From positions 1-42,649 of the forward strand of contig CACWOZ010000016.1 of assembly GCA_902762655.1 (NCBI GenBank): a stretch of DNA of 42,649 nucleotides. The letters run 5' to 3'. This DNA comes from an uncultured Bacteroidia bacterium (GTDB lineage Bacteria > Bacteroidota > Bacteroidia > Bacteroidales > UBA932). The stretch's first letter is position 1. Every line of letters begins with the position of its first letter. Below the pieces are notes generated by a model, which was not told the origin of the DNA, searched no databases, and worked only from the letters and a program-made list of their open reading frames with translations. The translations under genes and the position numbers were made by a program. This document shows positions 1,349 through 42,649 of the stretch, in pieces.

Positions 1349-3013
1349 ATGAAAAAGATAATCATCGCAGCAATCTGCCTGATCCTGGGAACATCTCTGC
1401 AGGCAAAAAAGGCAGAGACAAGCCTCAACATCATCCCTGAACCGCAGAGCGTGAGCATGGCCAAAGGCAGTTTCAAAATCAAGGGAGCGAATTTCAACTA
1501 CGATTCCTTCCTGGATGCTGTAACAGTCGGAGCAATCGCTAAACTGGCGGACGACATCAATCTCGCCAGCGGCAAAGCGGCCAGCGTGGCGGTTGCCACA
1601 GGCGTGAACTGCGGCACTCCCATCGATGCCATGAAAGGCATTTATTTCCTGAAAGATGCGACCCTGGCTCCAGAGGAATACAAGATAGAAATCGTGAGCA
1701 AAGCGGCCAAGATCACAGCCTCCGACAAGAATGGTTTCCTCTATGCCATAAGCACCTTGAAACAGATGCTTCCAGTAGAAATATACAGCGAAAAGCCTGC
1801 AGCTGGCGCCAAGTGGAGCATCCCCTGTTGCACCATTCAGGATAAACCTCGATTCACATACAGGGGGATCCACCTCGACTGCGCACGGCATTTCTACAGC
1901 GTAGCGGCCGTCAAGCGTTTCCTGGACGTCGCAGCCATGTACAAGATCAACCGTTTCCACTGGCATCTCACCGAAGACCAGGGATGGAGGATAGAGATCA
2001 AGAAGTACCCCTTGCTCACCGAGGTCGGAGCCTTCCGCGCAGGTACGCAAACCACGAAGGACAAGAACAAGCATGACGGCAAGCGTTACGGCGGATATTA
2101 CACCCAGGACCAGATCCGTGAGGTGGTTGAATATGCCGGCAAGTTAGGCATCACCGTCATCCCCGAACTCGACCTTCCTGGCCACATGCTTGCCGCAATG
2201 GCATCCTACCCCTGGCTCGGCTGCACAGGAGGACCCTATCAGGTTTGGACCAGATGGGGCGTTTCCGACCAGGTTCTCTGCGTTGGAAAGGAGAGCACCT
2301 TTGAGTTTATCTTCAACGTCCTGGACGAGATATGCGAACTCTTCCCCTCCGAATACATCCATATAGGAGGAGATGAGTGCCCCAAGAAGGAATGGGAGAA
2401 GTGCCCTGCGTGCCAGGCGAAGATTGCCGAACTAGGCCTCAAGGACGGCGACGGCGCGACCAAGGAACAGCGGTTGCAGAACTATGTGACGGGGCGCGTG
2501 CAGGACTACCTTGCAGGCAAAGGCCGCAAGATTATCGGATGGGATGAGATTCTGGAGGGTGACTTGGAGGAAGGCGCCACAGTAATGTCCTGGAGAGGGA
2601 CTAAGGGCGGCATCCAGGCTTCCAAAATGGGATTCGATGTCATCATGAGTCCTACGACCTACTGCTACTTCGACTACAAGCAGGGGGCTACTGAAGAAGA
2701 TTTGAAGGTGGGTGCGGCTTATCCTCCCAAAAAGCCTTATGACGCCAGGAACCTTTATGGTTACGAGCCTTACGATGAGATTGATGCCGAGGCGACGAAG
2801 CACATTCTTGGCGTGCAGGGCAATGTGTGGACGGAGTGGATACGCAACGAATACGAACTCTACTACATGCTGATCCCACGCCTGCAAGCTTTGAGCGAAG
2901 TGCAATGGACCGAGCCAGGAAAGCGCAGTTACGAGAACTTCACCCGCAAGATGGAAGGACTCCACTTCAAGATTATGGACGCTCTCGGATACAACTACCG
3001 TCCAGGCCTGTAG
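1349..3013 (+). CDS. beta-N-acetylhexosaminidase, GH20
   Basis: A 554-residue secreted glycoside hydrolase that removes terminal GlcNAc or GalNAc from glycans. Residues 1-19 form a signal peptide (MKKIIIAAICLILGTSLQA). An N-terminal GH20b-like domain precedes the catalytic barrel, which shows HWHLTEDQGWR near 215 and HIGGDE at 338-343, where D342-E343 is the catalytic pair of substrate-assisted catalysis. The C-terminal WTE and barrel-closing strands are present, so the enzyme looks complete. Likely periplasmic; used for host mucin or dietary glycan breakdown, or for cell-wall turnover. Only 2 nt separate it from the second chrA gene; a functional link is not obvious. Confidence 0.93.
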   Translation: MKKIIIAAICLILGTSLQAKKAETSLNIIPEPQSVSMAKGSFKIKGANFNYDSFLDAVTVGAIAKLADDINLASGKAASVAVATGVNCGTPIDAMKGIYFLKDATLAPEEYKIEIVSKAAKITASDKNGFLYAISTLKQMLPVEIYSEKPAAGAKWSIPCCTIQDKPRFTYRGIHLDCARHFYSVAAVKRFLDVAAMYKINRFHWHLTEDQGWRIEIKKYPLLTEVGAFRAGTQTTKDKNKHDGKRYGGYYTQDQIREVVEYAGKLGITVIPELDLPGHMLAAMASYPWLGCTGGPYQVWTRWGVSDQVLCVGKESTFEFIFNVLDEICELFPSEYIHIGGDECPKKEWEKCPACQAKIAELGLKDGDGATKEQRLQNYVTGRVQDYLAGKGRKIIGWDEILEGDLEEGATVMSWRGTKGGIQASKMGFDVIMSPTTYCYFDYKQGATEEDLKVGAAYPPKKPYDARNLYGYEPYDEIDAEATKHILGVQGNVWTEWIRNEYELYYMLIPRLQALSEVQWTEPGKRSYENFTRKMEGLHFKIMDALGYNYRPGL

Positions 3014-3033
3014 GCCGGTTCCGGCAATAAAAC

Positions 3034-28633: not shown

Positions 28634-30976
28634 TTACTCGAAATAATAATCTTCTTCTGTCTTGTTTTCAACTTGTCCCTCATCGGTGGTCTCGATATCC
28701 CCGCCGGTGCAGTCGAGGTTGAAGGATGCCCCGGCCGGAGCCAGGAAGCGGTCTCCCTCGCTGAAAAGCCCGTCAGCCAGACACTTCTTCATCCATATGC
28801 CCCAGATAGGGAGGGCCATGTTGGAACCGCTTCCAAGAGCAAGGGAGTTGAAGTGGATCTGACGGTCTTCGCCTCCGACCCATACACCGCAGGTGATGGA
28901 AGGGGTATACCCTATGAACCAGCCGTCGGAGTTGTCATTGGTAGTTCCGGTCTTGCCCGCGATTTCGCCTTTGAGCCCGTAGGCAGAACGGAGTCGAGCA
29001 CCGGTTCCATGGTTGACGACTCCCTCCATCAGGTTCACCATGAGGTATGCGGTGTTTTCACCCACAGCCTCCCGCTTGCGGTTGGTGAATTCGGACAGGA
29101 CATTGCCCTGACTGTCCTCGATACGGGTGACATACATGGGGGTGATGTATACTCCCTTCGAAGGAAGGGCGTTGTAGGCTGCCACCATTTCCTGGATGGA
29201 GATATCGGCGGCACCCACACAGAGAGCATAAACTTCTTCCAGGTGGCTGTGTACGCCCATCTTGTGCATCATCTCGGCCATTGCATGAGGGCCGAACTGC
29301 TTCATCAGATAGGCGGAGATATTGTTGGAAGAATGGGTAAGACCCCACTTCAGGGTCACGGTCTTGCCTATCCACTCGTCCTTGTCCGTGGACCGGGGCG
29401 TCCAGTCGGTGCCGTCGCCGGCGATAAAGGACTGGGGCACATTGATAACCTTGTCGCAGGGAGACATTCCCTCCTGCATGGCGAGGGTATAGAGGAAAGG
29501 CTTGATGGTGGATCCCACCTGACGCTTGCCCTGGCCGACGTTATCGTATTTGAAATAGCGGTAGTTGGGCCCGCCGACATAAGCCTTGATATGGCCGGTG
29601 ACGGGCTCTATCGCCACCATTCCGCAACGCAGTACGCTCTTGTACCAGAGGATGGAGTCGTTTGGAGTCATCACAGTATCGATGTATCCCTTCTGATTCC
29701 ATGCGAAAACACGCATCTTGACAGGCTTGTCGAACTGGGCAAGAATCTCGGCCTCGCTCACCCCCGCCTTGTGCTGCAGGCGATAACGGTCGCTCCAACG
29801 GCGGGCGTTACTCATCAGGCGGTCGCGCGTGGCCTTGTCGACATCCCCGGCGAACGGGGCGTTCTTCTTCCACTTGTTCTCACGGTCGAAGGCCTTCTGG
29901 AGATTCTTACCGAGATGCTCGGCCACTGCCTGCTCGGCATTTTGCTGCATGCGGTAGTTGATAGTGGTATAGATGCGCAGGCCGTCCTTGTCGAGATTGT
30001 ATTTCTCTCCGCCCGGTTTCTTATTCTTGTTGAGCCATCCGAAGAGTTCATCATCGCGCCAGCGCAGGGAATCGGCAGTATAGTCTTCGGCATACTGGTA
30101 GTTGCTGCGCTTTGGTTTCTGCGCATTCATGTCGCGGCGGAGCATATCCCTGAAATAAGGCGCGAGGCCGGCGTTGTGGTCCCGCACCTGATACACCAGA
30201 TTGATAGGAGTCTGCTTGATGGAATCCGCATCTGCCTTGGAGATGTACTTGTTCTTGGCCATCCTCCCTATCACGAAGTTGCGGCGGTTAAGGGCGCGCT
30301 CGGGATTGATGACAGGATTGTAGCGGGTAGGCTTGTTCACCATGCCTACGAGGGTGGCGGCCTCCTCTACCGTAAGTTCGGAGGGGAGTTTGTCGAAAAA
30401 GGTCTCCGATGCTGCACGGATGCCGTATGCACTGCTGCCGAAAAAGACAGAGTTAAGGTACATCACCAGTATTTCGTCCTTGGTGTAATTGCGCTCGAGT
30501 TTGACGGCGGTTATCCATTCCTTGAGCTTGATCCACACCATGCCTATCTTGCCCACGCCCTCTTTTCGGGGATACAAAGTCTTGGCGAGCTGCTGGGTGA
30601 TGGTGGAGCCGCCTCCTTGGCTGCTGTCCCGCATGAGTATGGTCTTGACCGCCACGCGGACAAGGCCTTTGGTATCGATGCCTGAATGCTTGCGGAAGCG
30701 GGCGTCCTCAGTCGCGATAGTGGCAGCTACGAGGTTGGGAGAAAGTTCGTCGTAACTGACGAAGGTGCGGTTTTCTATATGGAAGGTGGTAAGGACCTCC
30801 CCGCCGTCCGCGATGATCTGGGTGGCCAGCTTGCTGTCCGGGTGCTCAAGTTCCTCGAAAGAGGGGATTTTTGCAAACATCCACACGAGCAGCAGCAGGA
30901 ACAGGATCAGGGCGAAAGGGGCGGTGACCAGTATCCAAAACCACTTTATTATTTTTTTCTTCGTTGCGTCTTCCAT
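28634..30976 (-). CDS. mrcA: penicillin-binding protein 1A, bifunctional glycosyltransferase/transpeptidase
   Basis: A 780-residue class A PBP. One membrane helix (about 11-33) is followed by the GT51 domain (ATEDARFRKHSG; GGSTITQQLAK; AATLVGMVNKP) and the transpeptidase with GSTIKPF (SxxK serine), HSSNN (SxN) and AGKTGTTND (KTG). All catalytic motifs are intact. It polymerises and crosslinks peptidoglycan in the periplasm. It is co-transcribed with ddl. The promoter box at 31000-31007 lies about 24 nt before the ATG. Confidence 0.96.
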   Translation of the reverse strand: MEDATKKKIIKWFWILVTAPFALILFLLLLVWMFAKIPSFEELEHPDSKLATQIIADGGEVLTTFHIENRTFVSYDELSPNLVAATIATEDARFRKHSGIDTKGLVRVAVKTILMRDSSQGGGSTITQQLAKTLYPRKEGVGKIGMVWIKLKEWITAVKLERNYTKDEILVMYLNSVFFGSSAYGIRAASETFFDKLPSELTVEEAATLVGMVNKPTRYNPVINPERALNRRNFVIGRMAKNKYISKADADSIKQTPINLVYQVRDHNAGLAPYFRDMLRRDMNAQKPKRSNYQYAEDYTADSLRWRDDELFGWLNKNKKPGGEKYNLDKDGLRIYTTINYRMQQNAEQAVAEHLGKNLQKAFDRENKWKKNAPFAGDVDKATRDRLMSNARRWSDRYRLQHKAGVSEAEILAQFDKPVKMRVFAWNQKGYIDTVMTPNDSILWYKSVLRCGMVAIEPVTGHIKAYVGGPNYRYFKYDNVGQGKRQVGSTIKPFLYTLAMQEGMSPCDKVINVPQSFIAGDGTDWTPRSTDKDEWIGKTVTLKWGLTHSSNNISAYLMKQFGPHAMAEMMHKMGVHSHLEEVYALCVGAADISIQEMVAAYNALPSKGVYITPMYVTRIEDSQGNVLSEFTNRKREAVGENTAYLMVNLMEGVVNHGTGARLRSAYGLKGEIAGKTGTTNDNSDGWFIGYTPSITCGVWVGGEDRQIHFNSLALGSGSNMALPIWGIWMKKCLADGLFSEGDRFLAPAGASFNLDCTGGDIETTDEGQVENKTEEDYYFE

Positions 30977-40764: not shown

Positions 40765-40772
40765 TATCTTTG
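40765..40772 (+). promoter_or_regulatory. -7 box of the tRNA-Leu gene
   Basis: TATCTTTG, exact TAnnTTTG, 37 nt before the first base of the tRNA. A perfect 7-bp hairpin (GGGCCAG-CCAGC-CTGGCCC, 40783-40801) lies in the 5' leader and may guide processing. Confidence 0.5.
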
Positions 40773-40843
40773 CAACCGGTTTGGGCCAGCCAGCCTGGCC
40801 CCGGCCAAAGCCTTGGTGGTGGAATGGTAGACACGAGGGACTT

Positions 40844-41568
40844 AGACGAGCTCTTTGAAATAATTATTTGTAAGACTCGATGGTAAGTATTAACTTTGCC
40901 TCTGCTATGAAAGTGAGTTATTCAGAAAACGATATTCGAGTTGCGGTAAAAGACAGTAAATCTATTGCAGGTGTCCTACGTCATTTAGGGTTACGCCCTG
41001 TTGGTGGGAACTACAAAACAATTCATCATCTCATTAAAGAATATGAGTTGGACACTTCGCATTTTACTGGACAAGGATGGAATGTCGGACTAAAATTCAA
41101 ACCCAAAACCGGGCTTTTGGATTCCGATATTTTCAAGATAGATTCCGACTATCGTTGTTCCTGGAGACTTAGAGAGCGTTATAAGAAGATTACCGGTATC
41201 CAATATTGCGAGAATTGTAATCTTTCAGAATGGCAGGGACAACCAATTCCATTGGAAATACATCATCTCAATGGGAATAATACGGACAATCGCTTAGAAA
41301 ATTTGAAATTGCTTTGTCCAAACTGCCACGCGCTAACAGATAATTATCGAGGAAGAGCACATTTGAGTGCACTCTCTGAAAAGAGAGATGTAGAATGCCG
41401 TAAATTCAAGGAAACCTTAACAGATAGAGCTGAAGGCAATCTTGAGCCAAGCCTCTGAAAAGAGGAAGGTGCAGAGACTAGACACGGCACACCTAAAGAG
41501 TAATGATCCATGGTGAAGGAATAGTCCGGACCACAAACAGAAATGGTGGCGAAAGCCATAGTGGTAAG
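40844..41568 (+). ncRNA. group I intron (IC3-like) in tRNA-Leu(UAA)
   Basis: A 725-nt self-splicing-type intron. P1 pairs the exon end GGGACUU with the guide GAGCUC (40848-40853), giving the required U-G at the 5' splice site. P3 is TGCCGT (41396-41401) with ACGGCA (41484-41489). P4 uses TCAAG with CTTGA. P6 is CCTC-TGAAAA-GAGG. P7 is GACTA (41476-41480) with TAGTC (41522-41526). P8 closes with CACC and GGTG. P9 ends in a GAAA tetraloop (TGGC-GAAA-GCCA). The last intron base is G (41568). The phrases GGCAATCTTGAGCCAAGCC and GGTGCAGAGACTAGACACGGC match the conserved core of the cyanobacterial tRNA-Leu intron. Length is more than double because of the inserted gene. Confidence 0.9.
40880..41458 (+). 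CDS. HNH homing endonuclease encoded in the group I intron
   Basis: A 192-residue protein. Residues 12-65 form a helical DNA-binding part (VLRHLGLRPVGGNYKTI; LDTSHFTGQGW) of a type common in phage and intron HNH enzymes. The HNH nuclease has CENC at 110-113, EIHHLNGNN with catalytic histidines at 128-129, NRLENL and CPNCH at 146-150, with the four cysteines as a zinc site. It would cut intronless tRNA-Leu genes and start intron homing. Codons from about residue 172 to the stop are also P3-P6 of the ribozyme. The A+T-rich composition contrasts with its surroundings. A second ATG at 40907 is a possible start. Confidence 0.88.
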   Translation: MVSINFASAMKVSYSENDIRVAVKDSKSIAGVLRHLGLRPVGGNYKTIHHLIKEYELDTSHFTGQGWNVGLKFKPKTGLLDSDIFKIDSDYRCSWRLRERYKKITGIQYCENCNLSEWQGQPIPLEIHHLNGNNTDNRLENLKLLCPNCHALTDNYRGRAHLSALSEKRDVECRKFKETLTDRAEGNLEPSL

Positions 41569-41623
41569 AAAATCCCTTGGCCCGAAACGGCCGTGCGGGT
41601 TCGATTCCCGCCCGGGGCACGAG

Positions 41624-41869: not shown

Positions 41870-41919
41870 AATCGGCAGAAATGTTTAACTTTGTAATCGG
41901 CAGAAATGTTTAACTTTGT
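41870..41919 (+). repeat. 25-bp tandem duplication carrying promoter boxes
   Basis: 41870-41894 and 41895-41919 are identical 25-nt units. Each contains TAACTTTG (41886-41893 and 41911-41918), an exact TAnnTTTG box pointing at the CPBP gene. A reversed copy of the box (41862-41869) stands before the first unit and forms a 10-bp inverted repeat with it. Confidence 0.85.
41911..41918 (+). promoter_or_regulatory. -7 box for the CPBP gene, downstream copy
   Basis: TAACTTTG, exact TAnnTTTG, 30 nt before the ATG at 41949. The upstream copy at 41886-41893 could act as a second start site. Confidence 0.5.
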
Positions 41920-41948
41920 ATTTGATAAATCGAAATGTGAACAAGCAA

Positions 41949-42649
41949 ATGAATACCAAGAAACTGATTGTATTTCTCCTATGGGCGTTTGTCCCTATGG
42001 TGATTGTGGGATTGGTGATGCATTCCGGCGCGGCTAATCTCGGAGGCCAGAGTGACGACGTGATAGATTCCGCCCCTACCGCGGCATTGCGAGGACTTGT
42101 TTTCAGCGCCGGGGCTATGCTAATTCCCTTGTTGGCGGTCATCTTCACGCAGCTCATTTTCAAAGAACCGGTCCTGAAGGGACTGGGTATTTCCTTCAAG
42201 CTGAACCGCTGGTGGTGGATTGGCTGGCTGCTGATGCCGGTCATCGCACTTGCCGTATTGGGTGTGACGCTGCTGATGCCGGGGGCCAAATGGACGCCGG
42301 ACAGTGTGATGATGCAGCAGGCCATGCAGTCGATGCCGGAAGGAGTCGGCGTGTGGGGCGTCATCTGCATTTCTCTGCTCAGTGGACTGCTTATGGGAGT
42401 TACTCTCAATGCCTTTTTCGCCTTTGGCGAGGAGATTGCCTGGCGCGGCTTCCTGATGAAGGAGTTCAAGGGAAAGAAGTTCCTAACCGTAGCCCTGTGG
42501 ATTGGTGTCATCTGGGGCCTCTGGCACGCTCCGATCATCCTGAACGGGCACAACTATCCGCAGCATCCTGTGGCGGGTGTCTTCATGATGGTGGCATTTT
42601 GTCTGCTGCTTACCCCGATGCTGATGTATTTCCGCCAGAAAAGCGGTTC
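41949..42649 (+). CDS. CPBP family intramembrane metalloprotease, partial (runs off the window)
   Basis: The first 233 residues of a membrane protein with about six helices so far. The CPBP (Abi) motifs are EEIAWRGFL (EExxxR) and GLWHAP, with a further NGHNYP segment; these hold the glutamates and histidines of the glutamic/metal active site. Relatives include type II CAAX prenyl proteases and bacteriocin self-immunity proteins; in Bacteroidota the role is mostly unknown. An in-frame GTG at 41937 would add four residues. Two tandem promoter boxes lie upstream. Confidence 0.85.
   Translation, partial: MNTKKLIVFLLWAFVPMVIVGLVMHSGAANLGGQSDDVIDSAPTAALRGLVFSAGAMLIPLLAVIFTQLIFKEPVLKGLGISFKLNRWWWIGWLLMPVIALAVLGVTLLMPGAKWTPDSVMMQQAMQSMPEGVGVWGVICISLLSGLLMGVTLNAFFAFGEEIAWRGFLMKEFKGKKFLTVALWIGVIWGLWHAPIILNGHNYPQHPVAGVFMMVAFCLLLTPMLMYFRQKSG

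Follow-up and report, generated by a model that had tools for sequence, protein, structure and literature searches.

The window, that is, the whole stretch of 42,649 nucleotides that was analysed, belongs to a gut Bacteroidales genome of 2.18 Mb in 36 contigs, which is 96% complete. Its plus strand carries a split tRNA-Leu(UAA) gene, composed of a 5' exon ending in U34 (40810..40843), an intron of 725 nt with a terminal G (40844..41568) and a 3' exon running from A35 to the discriminator base (41569..41619). Without its intron option, ARAGORN calls no tRNA at this locus. With the option -i, a tRNA-Leu(taa) is reported at 40810-41620 with an intron of 725 nt, and the joined exons form the complete 85-nt class II tRNA-Leu(UAA) fold that the original prediction had described. 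Common tRNA finders overlook intron-split genes of this kind unless the intron search is switched on.

Upstream of the gene, on the same strand, TATCTTTG at 40765..40772 has the form TAnnTTTG of a Bacteroides-type -7 box and is a candidate promoter of the pre-tRNA. When the spliced tRNA was used as a query against the whole genome, no uninterrupted trnL-UAA was found, the next-best match reading as tRNA-Leu(CAA). By textbook wobble rules, UUA codons need tRNA-Leu(UAA). Given such codons occur six times in four genes of the window, splicing of the intron is probably essential. The G+C content of the intron is 40.4%, compared with 53.0% for the window. Elsewhere in the window, ARAGORN -i predicts a tRNA-Arg(tct) split by a 75-nt intron on the minus strand (28721-28890), probably a false call, and a 26-base direct repeat, aatcggcagaaatgtttaactttgta, stands in two head-to-tail copies at 41870-41920, upstream of the gene at 41916-42647, with a TAACTTTG box in each copy.

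The intron was compared with Rfam covariance models, a check that the original prediction had proposed for its claim of a group I intron between U34 and A35. The scan of the window at gathering thresholds returned no match; with an E-value threshold instead, RF00028 hits 41351-41550 at 48.8 bits, just below the cut-off of 50, and E 3.2e-11. This is the sole match to the model at E <= 0.001 in the whole genome. The cut-off is passed by nine of twelve true relatives from a draw of same-family genomes, the three below it being the window's own intron and those of G175 and G182.

All the elements named by the original prediction (P1, P3, P4, P6, P7, P8, P9 and the terminal G) are present on the plus strand, and P2, P5 and P9.1 can be added. 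By inspection, the internal guide region (41362..41370) contains GAGU able to pair with exon ACUU, so that exon positions 40840-40843 and 41365-41368 form P1 with the exon U opposite a G of GAGU; the U.G pair at the 5' splice site and the terminal G are thus both found. A P2 hairpin follows at 41372..41387. The core from P3 to P9, including the P3/P7 pseudoknot, occupies 41396..41568 and comprises P3 (41396-41401/41484-41489), P4 (41405-41410/41441-41446), P6 with P6a (41447-41469), P7 (41476-41480/41522-41526), P8 (41490-41493/41512-41515), P9 (41530-41534/41561-41565) and P9.1 (41547-41558).

This core is supported by covariation in 61 cores, hand-picked out of 79 that represent 133 distinct cores: 44 from gut Bacteroidales, 16 viral and one from a Bradyrhizobium plasmid, with the window's core as one row. 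The structure evaluated (P3, P4, P5, P5a, P6, P6a, P7, P8, P9 and P9.1) was derived from one row. Standard pairs occupy 97.8% of its pair cells, versus 87.2% in shuffles, and changes on both sides are seen in 25 of 42 pairs, a number reached in none of 500 shuffles. In P3, all six pairs show such changes. When the structure is slid by 1-3 columns, only 26-43% of cells pair, a control that flatters the structure because it was derived from one row. The insert in trnL-UAA therefore has a P3-P9 core with a P3/P7 pseudoknot, at an Rfam score just below the cut-off. We read it as a group I intron, and self-splicing is predicted.

The endonuclease gene that had been noticed in the intron encodes an HNH protein. 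The gene lies on the plus strand at 40907..41458 (183 aa from the likelier start, 40907), in a frame open from 40880 (40880-41458, 192 aa), and the 192-aa product matches PF13392 (E 1.2e-5) and phrog_10822 (E 3.3e-45). Comparison with ORF-less relatives places it in the P1 loop, flanked by the exon strand on one side and the guide strand on the other. It stands 5' of the core and extends into it, its last ~30 aa being encoded by the P2-P6 sequence of the ribozyme. In a 39-row alignment, H120, N132, H141, C101, C104, C137 and C140 are among the invariant residues, the first three of which are taken as the HNH motif. The AlphaFold model (mean pLDDT 83.9, pTM 0.53) has high confidence in the N-terminal helices and in the nuclease part. 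No relative of solved structure was found by sequence at E 0.01 with a 40-row alignment, nor by a fold search with the model at E <= 0.001; weak fold matches include the HNH nucleases McrA, Cap5, PacI and I-HmuI.

Each of the 30 HNH-bearing introns identified in Bacteroidales has an open frame with the HNH motif, and in 28 of them, judged by a motif test, both ends of the protein are spanned (the exceptions are L023 and L084). The median dN/dS is 0.08, a value obtained from only seven unsaturated pairs, and pN/pS is 0.26 over 28 sequences. By these measures the gene is intact and under purifying selection.

A conserved noncoding block in the P1 loop (40852..40898, plus strand) precedes the likelier start of the gene. 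It consists of TCTTTGAAATAATTA (40852-40866), which resembles a boxA antitermination element, followed by TTTG-N20-TAACTTTG (40867-40898). In motif counts, TTTG-N17-22-TAnnTT[T/C] is present in the first 80 nt of 27 of the 30 HNH-bearing introns versus 1.0% of shuffles, and the strict Bacteroides form in 11 of 30 versus 0.07%. This suggests that the HNH gene has its own promoter inside the P1 loop.

How often such an intron has been reported in Bacteroidota had been left as a question by the original prediction, together with a search for intron-bearing and intronless alleles; both kinds of allele were found. Among 199 genomes of the same family, RF00028 has 14 matches. Twelve are trnL-UAA introns, and two (G005 and G179) were rejected, having no tRNA call and no P7 motif; L013 looks protein-coding by eye. 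Among the 199 genomes, 147 show the pattern of an uninterrupted trnL-UAA, none of the twelve carriers being one of them, so that intron and uninterrupted gene exclude each other. Forty genomes had neither an RF00028-type intron nor the intronless pattern, and eleven of these were inspected: four hold an intronless variant (G074, G096, G097 and G119), two hold a second intron (G107 and G177), one has a contig end just past an intron-like start in trnL (G027), and the other four received no assignment. The window's genus, with 19 genomes, divides into three with the window-type intron, two with the second intron and 14 without any. Exact empty sites are seen as well: over their 85 nt, the uninterrupted tRNAs of G051 and G113 do not differ at any position from the spliced exons of G175, an intron carrier of the same genus as these two. 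An intact, selected nuclease gene and an exact empty site are the sequence features of a homing intron, and both are found here.

When 84,980 species genomes were scanned for a P7 pattern, at least 119 stretches were retrieved. One of them, from Demequina (L090), lacks a tRNA exon motif at the site and was discarded as a chance match to the pattern. At least 118 contigs of Bacteroidales or Bacteroidia genomes thus carry a related intron at the same trnL-UAA site, and the intron is not rare. Their titles name Bacteroidales or its families and genera in 92 cases, Bacteroidia in 25 and only a bacterium in one. Ruminant stomach, horse or deer is named in 50 titles, 41 belong to the RUG series, presumably rumen genomes, and 27 are uninformative; by title, carriers are mostly herbivore-gut genomes.

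The scan and the twelve family genomes make up 130 rows, in which eight family loci duplicate scan contigs. Both junctions are present in 118 of the 130 rows (109 distinct introns), and the other 12 have one junction and are cut at the other. The 109 distinct introns comprise 66 of 211-249 nt, 30 of 705-752 nt with the HNH gene and 13 of intermediate length. Pieces of the HNH gene are clear in eight of the intermediate introns (L030, L047, L048, L053, L056, L078, L088 and L133), and the tail end of the gene is retained in three short ones (L021, L089 and L103). The length classes look like the result of repeated decay of the nuclease gene. That every intermediate intron is an HNH remnant was rejected, given that five of the 13 (L018, L058, L075, L095 and L127) have no clear HNH similarity. 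These five have P1-loop inserts of ~95-190 nt with a similar CTC[TA]TTGA block at the start.

A search for the HNH in 393 genomes of the order found the window's own intronic copy only, and in the window's genome the intron-encoded copy is the sole HNH of the family. In a draw from the whole phylum, RF00028 matches 30 of 395 Bacteroidota genomes at E <= 0.001, several of the matches being in tRNA genes; Bacteroidota are therefore not free of tRNA group I introns. In other Bacteroidota families, ARAGORN places such introns in tRNA-Arg(UCU) (L244, L247-L249, L252-L254, L259 and L268), tRNA-Gln(CUG) (L242 and L245) and tRNA-Leu(CAA) (L250, L257 and L263).

The second intron, found in two genomes of the window's genus (G107 and G177), occupies the same trnL-UAA site with a different core and carries an HNH gene of the same family, again in the first loop. 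Its core is not detected by Rfam and is 73-74% identical to that of the viral intron L157; the pattern of this core is present in two of the 199 family genomes and in one viral contig, that of L157. The HNH proteins of the second lineage form a pair of their own (support 99), outside the clade of the other Bacteroidales HNHs. The two introns (L283 in G107 and L284 in G177) lie at about 1484-2330 in tRNA orientation.

Searched as DNA against collections of phages and plasmids, the core has its best matches in phage records (best E 1e-16), and Bradyrhizobium plasmids matched at E 4e-10. One of the latter (L187, CP094621), typed as conjugative, has at 1898-2188 a trnL-UAA with a 204-nt ORF-less intron. 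Scanning viral contigs with only the HNH returned 34 loci, of which we count 24 as distinct. In five (L147, L148, L149, L150 and L157), a trnL-UAA gene is interrupted at the same site by an intron with the HNH gene in its first loop. Four of these genes stand amid other tRNA genes, and that of L147 is the sole tRNA gene of its 6.5 kb. The same layout is seen in L152, with its tRNA identity not assigned; L167, in which ARAGORN puts an intron in tRNA-Ser and the HNH frame is broken, was left aside. A pattern of group I core plus tRNA-Leu-like 3' exon, biased to tRNA-Leu by construction, retrieved 53 partly redundant viral stretches, 49 of which are trnL-UAA with an intron according to ARAGORN. 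The huge phage LR756501 has an ORF-less trnL-UAA intron, and in L182 (LR756511) and L218 an HNH of the same family is in the P6 loop of the trnL-UAA intron rather than the P1 loop. The phage status of the viral contigs rests on IMG/VR. PHROGs match five of ten neighbouring proteins tested, with none of two matched on L147, the nearest contig. The closest relatives found are inserted at the corresponding position of phage tRNA genes, an indication that phages carry the intron.

Outside introns, the HNH was found by the same scan in 15 distinct viral loci. The nearest tRNA is Leu, within 94 nt, in 14 of them (L178 is the exception), whereas random tRNAs drawn from these loci would give 6.5, and none of 20,000 simulations gave so high a count; among the non-flanking tRNAs of these loci, Leu accounts for 17 of 76. 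Two short HNH matches, L179 and L180, lie in stretches of 6 kb that contain no tRNA. Eight GenBank phages were also picked from the 40 best rows of 209 matching records. In six of these (Rhodococcus Francesca, Gordonia GodonK, Vibrio D69, Citrobacter Maleficent, Synechococcus S-CRM01 and LR745208) a tRNA-Leu is at most 105 nt from the HNH match and in four it is the nearest tRNA, while Enterococcus Bop and LR756504 have no tRNA-Leu near the match. Eight further viral loci, from the intron pattern search, have a free-standing HNH gene 1-47 nt from a trnL-UAA that contains an ORF-less intron (L196, L201, L208, L222, L226, L232, L234 and L240). Free-standing HNH genes adjoining tRNA-Leu were encountered in viral records only, and so was the arrangement expected of collaborative homing, in which a free-standing nuclease gene adjoins an intron-bearing gene.

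The core tree was obtained by a quick search over 181 columns, with 134 of 160 rows after near-identical Bacteroidales rows were dropped. In it, 79 Bacteroidales rows and four viral-contig rows make up one side of a branch with SH-aLRT 100, and ten more viral introns join this group with support 95. Within this group, the four viral introns are weakly nested among the Bacteroidales rows, and 64 of the 131 inner branches of the tree are open. In a core tree restricted to close outgroups, 105 Bacteroidales rows are split from 12 viral rows (97), and the four viral introns then lie outside the Bacteroidales. The only cyanobacterial row, an Anabaena core, is far from the Bacteroidales clade, and its placement is unsure because it falls among long branches. 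In the HNH tree of 68 rows, the 30 Bacteroidales proteins are one clade (100) among viral proteins. Nearest to it are L147 and L153 (join support 86), the former encoded inside a viral trnL-UAA intron and the latter free-standing, 26 nt from an intact trnL-UAA. Free-standing and intronic forms are mixed in this tree, with eight label changes, three of them forced by starred branches. The 30-34 changes of HNH state on the core tree were not counted as evidence, given that tree is weakly resolved.

Taken together, these results probably reflect a mobile trnL-UAA intron drawn from a phage pool, with splicing, HNH homing, phage-to-host transfer and ORF decay as its parts. The intron would most likely leave the pre-tRNA by guanosine-initiated self-splicing, and the HNH would probably be expressed from its own P1-loop promoter. 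Most likely, the nuclease cuts intronless trnL-UAA alleles near the anticodon, and repair then copies the intron in. The pool would be mainly in phages, where the HNH is seen beside tRNA-Leu, beside a tRNA-Leu with an ORF-less intron and inside trnL-UAA introns. Transfer from phage to host would seed Bacteroidales, where the HNH gene would decay and the intron persist in ORF-less form; this direction and the order of the stages are what we infer. In our best reading of the sequences, an HNH homing on tRNA-Leu shuttles between the tRNA arrays of phages and the chromosomes of their hosts, spreading trnL-UAA introns by homing, possibly collaborative. A nuclease directed at tRNA-Leu would explain the free-standing genes beside tRNA-Leu, the presence of one HNH family in two loops and with two cores at one site, and the introns placed exactly at U34/A35. 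Several observations weigh against this reading: the modest support (86) for the join of the Bacteroidales HNHs to L147 and L153, the many open branches of the core tree, the lack of PHROG matches next to the L147 intron, the five intermediate introns free of clear HNH similarity, the single HNH copy found in 393 genomes of the order, and the HNH genes with no tRNA-Leu close by. The horizontal spread or separate mobile lineage anticipated by the original prediction is supported.

Transfer may also have run the other way, the intron having arisen in Bacteroidota chromosomes and phages having acquired trnL genes with the intron in them. Phages do take up host tRNA genes, several other Bacteroidota families have group I introns in trnL-UAA or other tRNAs, and the four viral introns among Bacteroidales rows in one core tree, weakly supported as they are, would fit. 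This direction is nevertheless unlikely: a single branch separates the Bacteroidales cores from their nearest outgroups, the HNHs encoded by Bacteroidales make up one clade within a more varied set of viral HNHs, the G+C content of the intron is below that of the window, and free-standing HNHs by tRNA-Leu appear in viral records only. The specificity of the nuclease can be doubted in turn, since HNH genes occur generally in phage tRNA clusters (PMC6409571), and the family might merely hitchhike in tRNA-rich phage regions and introns. L178, L179, L180 and the two GenBank phages with no tRNA-Leu nearby agree with this, as do two of the six phages with tRNA-Leu in which another tRNA is closer. 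Hitchhiking is, however, quite improbable given the excess of Leu as nearest tRNA over its share of the non-flanking tRNAs, and given that one HNH family is found in two loops of trnL introns and with two cores at one site.

Two further origins would tie the intron to the cyanobacterial one. Descent from a common ancestor with cyanobacteria, followed by many losses, would account for the same site and the same general type of core, and patchiness could reflect loss; yet it is made very improbable by a genus in which the same tRNA allele occurs both interrupted and intronless, by the two distinct cores that share a site within a genus, by the selection on the HNH and by the nearest relatives found, which are on viral contigs. 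The carriers, being mostly herbivore-gut genomes by title, might instead have acquired the intron from plastid or cyanobacterial DNA in the diet, and plastids hold a trnL-UAA intron (PMC4476775). Against this, the cores group with viral introns, and the Anabaena core falls far off, unsure as its placement is. Plastid trnL introns are not known to contain an HNH gene, and an origin in the diet is hardly credible.

The match with the cyanobacterial and plastid intron claimed by the original prediction thus holds for the site, insertion after U34 being that of the cyanobacterial trnL-UAA intron, and finds no support for the lineage (subgroup IC3), the nearest relatives found for core and HNH being on viral contigs. 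The host gene and the general core layout are shared as well; what differs here is the HNH gene in the P1 loop, the presence and absence of the intron in one genus and the viral affinity. In this comparison, the cyanobacterial side of the tree is the one Anabaena sequence, and structure was judged by the general Rfam model only. The pattern scan of viral contigs gave no cyanobacterial comparators, the plasmid search with the Anabaena intron gave no match, and the cyanobacterial core string was absent from the paper text searched. The trnL-UAA intron is a textbook ancient intron. Its wide acceptance as old, though it is patchy in cyanobacteria, is stated in PMC4476775. At the same site, we find a form whose nuclease gene is under selection, both on viral contigs and in hosts that are distant from cyanobacteria. 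With more speculation, phage tRNA arrays might be a reservoir of trnL-UAA introns at large, in which the HNH and ORF-less introns cooperate and repeatedly seed bacterial chromosomes, the cyanobacterial and plastid intron being the fossil of one such event; we regard this extension as conceivable and rather doubtful.

Parallels exist among known systems. I-SspI is an endonuclease of a Synechocystis intron for the anticodon region of tRNA-fMet; a bacterial tRNA group I intron that encodes an endonuclease, with the anticodon region as target (a predicted one here), is common to both, and the tRNA is different (fMet versus Leu here). SegB of phage T4 is free-standing and works without an intron. 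As a homing endonuclease that spreads a phage tRNA region (PMC6409571), it shares with the present family the tie to such regions. In collaborative homing, a free-standing nuclease gene stands next to an intron-bearing gene, as described in PMC6083498, PMC10448857 and PMC3984707; the example is F-CphI, beside the intron-bearing psbA of cyanophage S-PM2 (PMC6083498). The viral loci share this arrangement of nuclease gene and intron-bearing gene. They differ from F-CphI, an enzyme with an Endo VII motif and demonstrated cleavage specificity (PMC6083498), in that the gene is tRNA-Leu, the nuclease is an HNH, cleavage is predicted, and the arrangements on viral contigs range from the flank to the interior of the intron.

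Homing group I introns are already known. In titles and beginnings of abstracts, with subscription papers and preprints outside the scope, no report was found of trnL introns from Bacteroidota or from the tRNA genes of phages, and the same search found no tRNA-Leu-associated HNH family spanning phages and Bacteroidales, nor a tRNA-Leu system shared by phage and host. According to a 2014 review (PMC3984707), phage introns had so far been found in protein genes despite the many phage tRNA genes; viral trnL introns would fill this gap. Given the nuclease is seen beside a tRNA, beside an intron-bearing tRNA, inside an intron, as a remnant and not at all, the proposed path to mobile introns becomes directly testable in one system.

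Some viral loci show related sequences in other settings. In L185 (Dulem virus 42), a tRNA-Leu-like gene is split near U34 by an HNH gene of the same family at about 2360-3020; the insert leaves no room for a ribozyme and its ends are near-inverted repeats, and ARAGORN calls the locus a tRNA-Met with an intron. Promoter density in the viral loci, considered as a hint of Bacteroidota hosts, was dropped, the counts being too small. Two further phages, crAss-like cr111_1 (L183) and Kolpuevirus frurule (L184), share 53-60 nt with the P8-P9 end of the intron, and in both the matching stretch lies between a GIY-YIG gene and a helicase gene.
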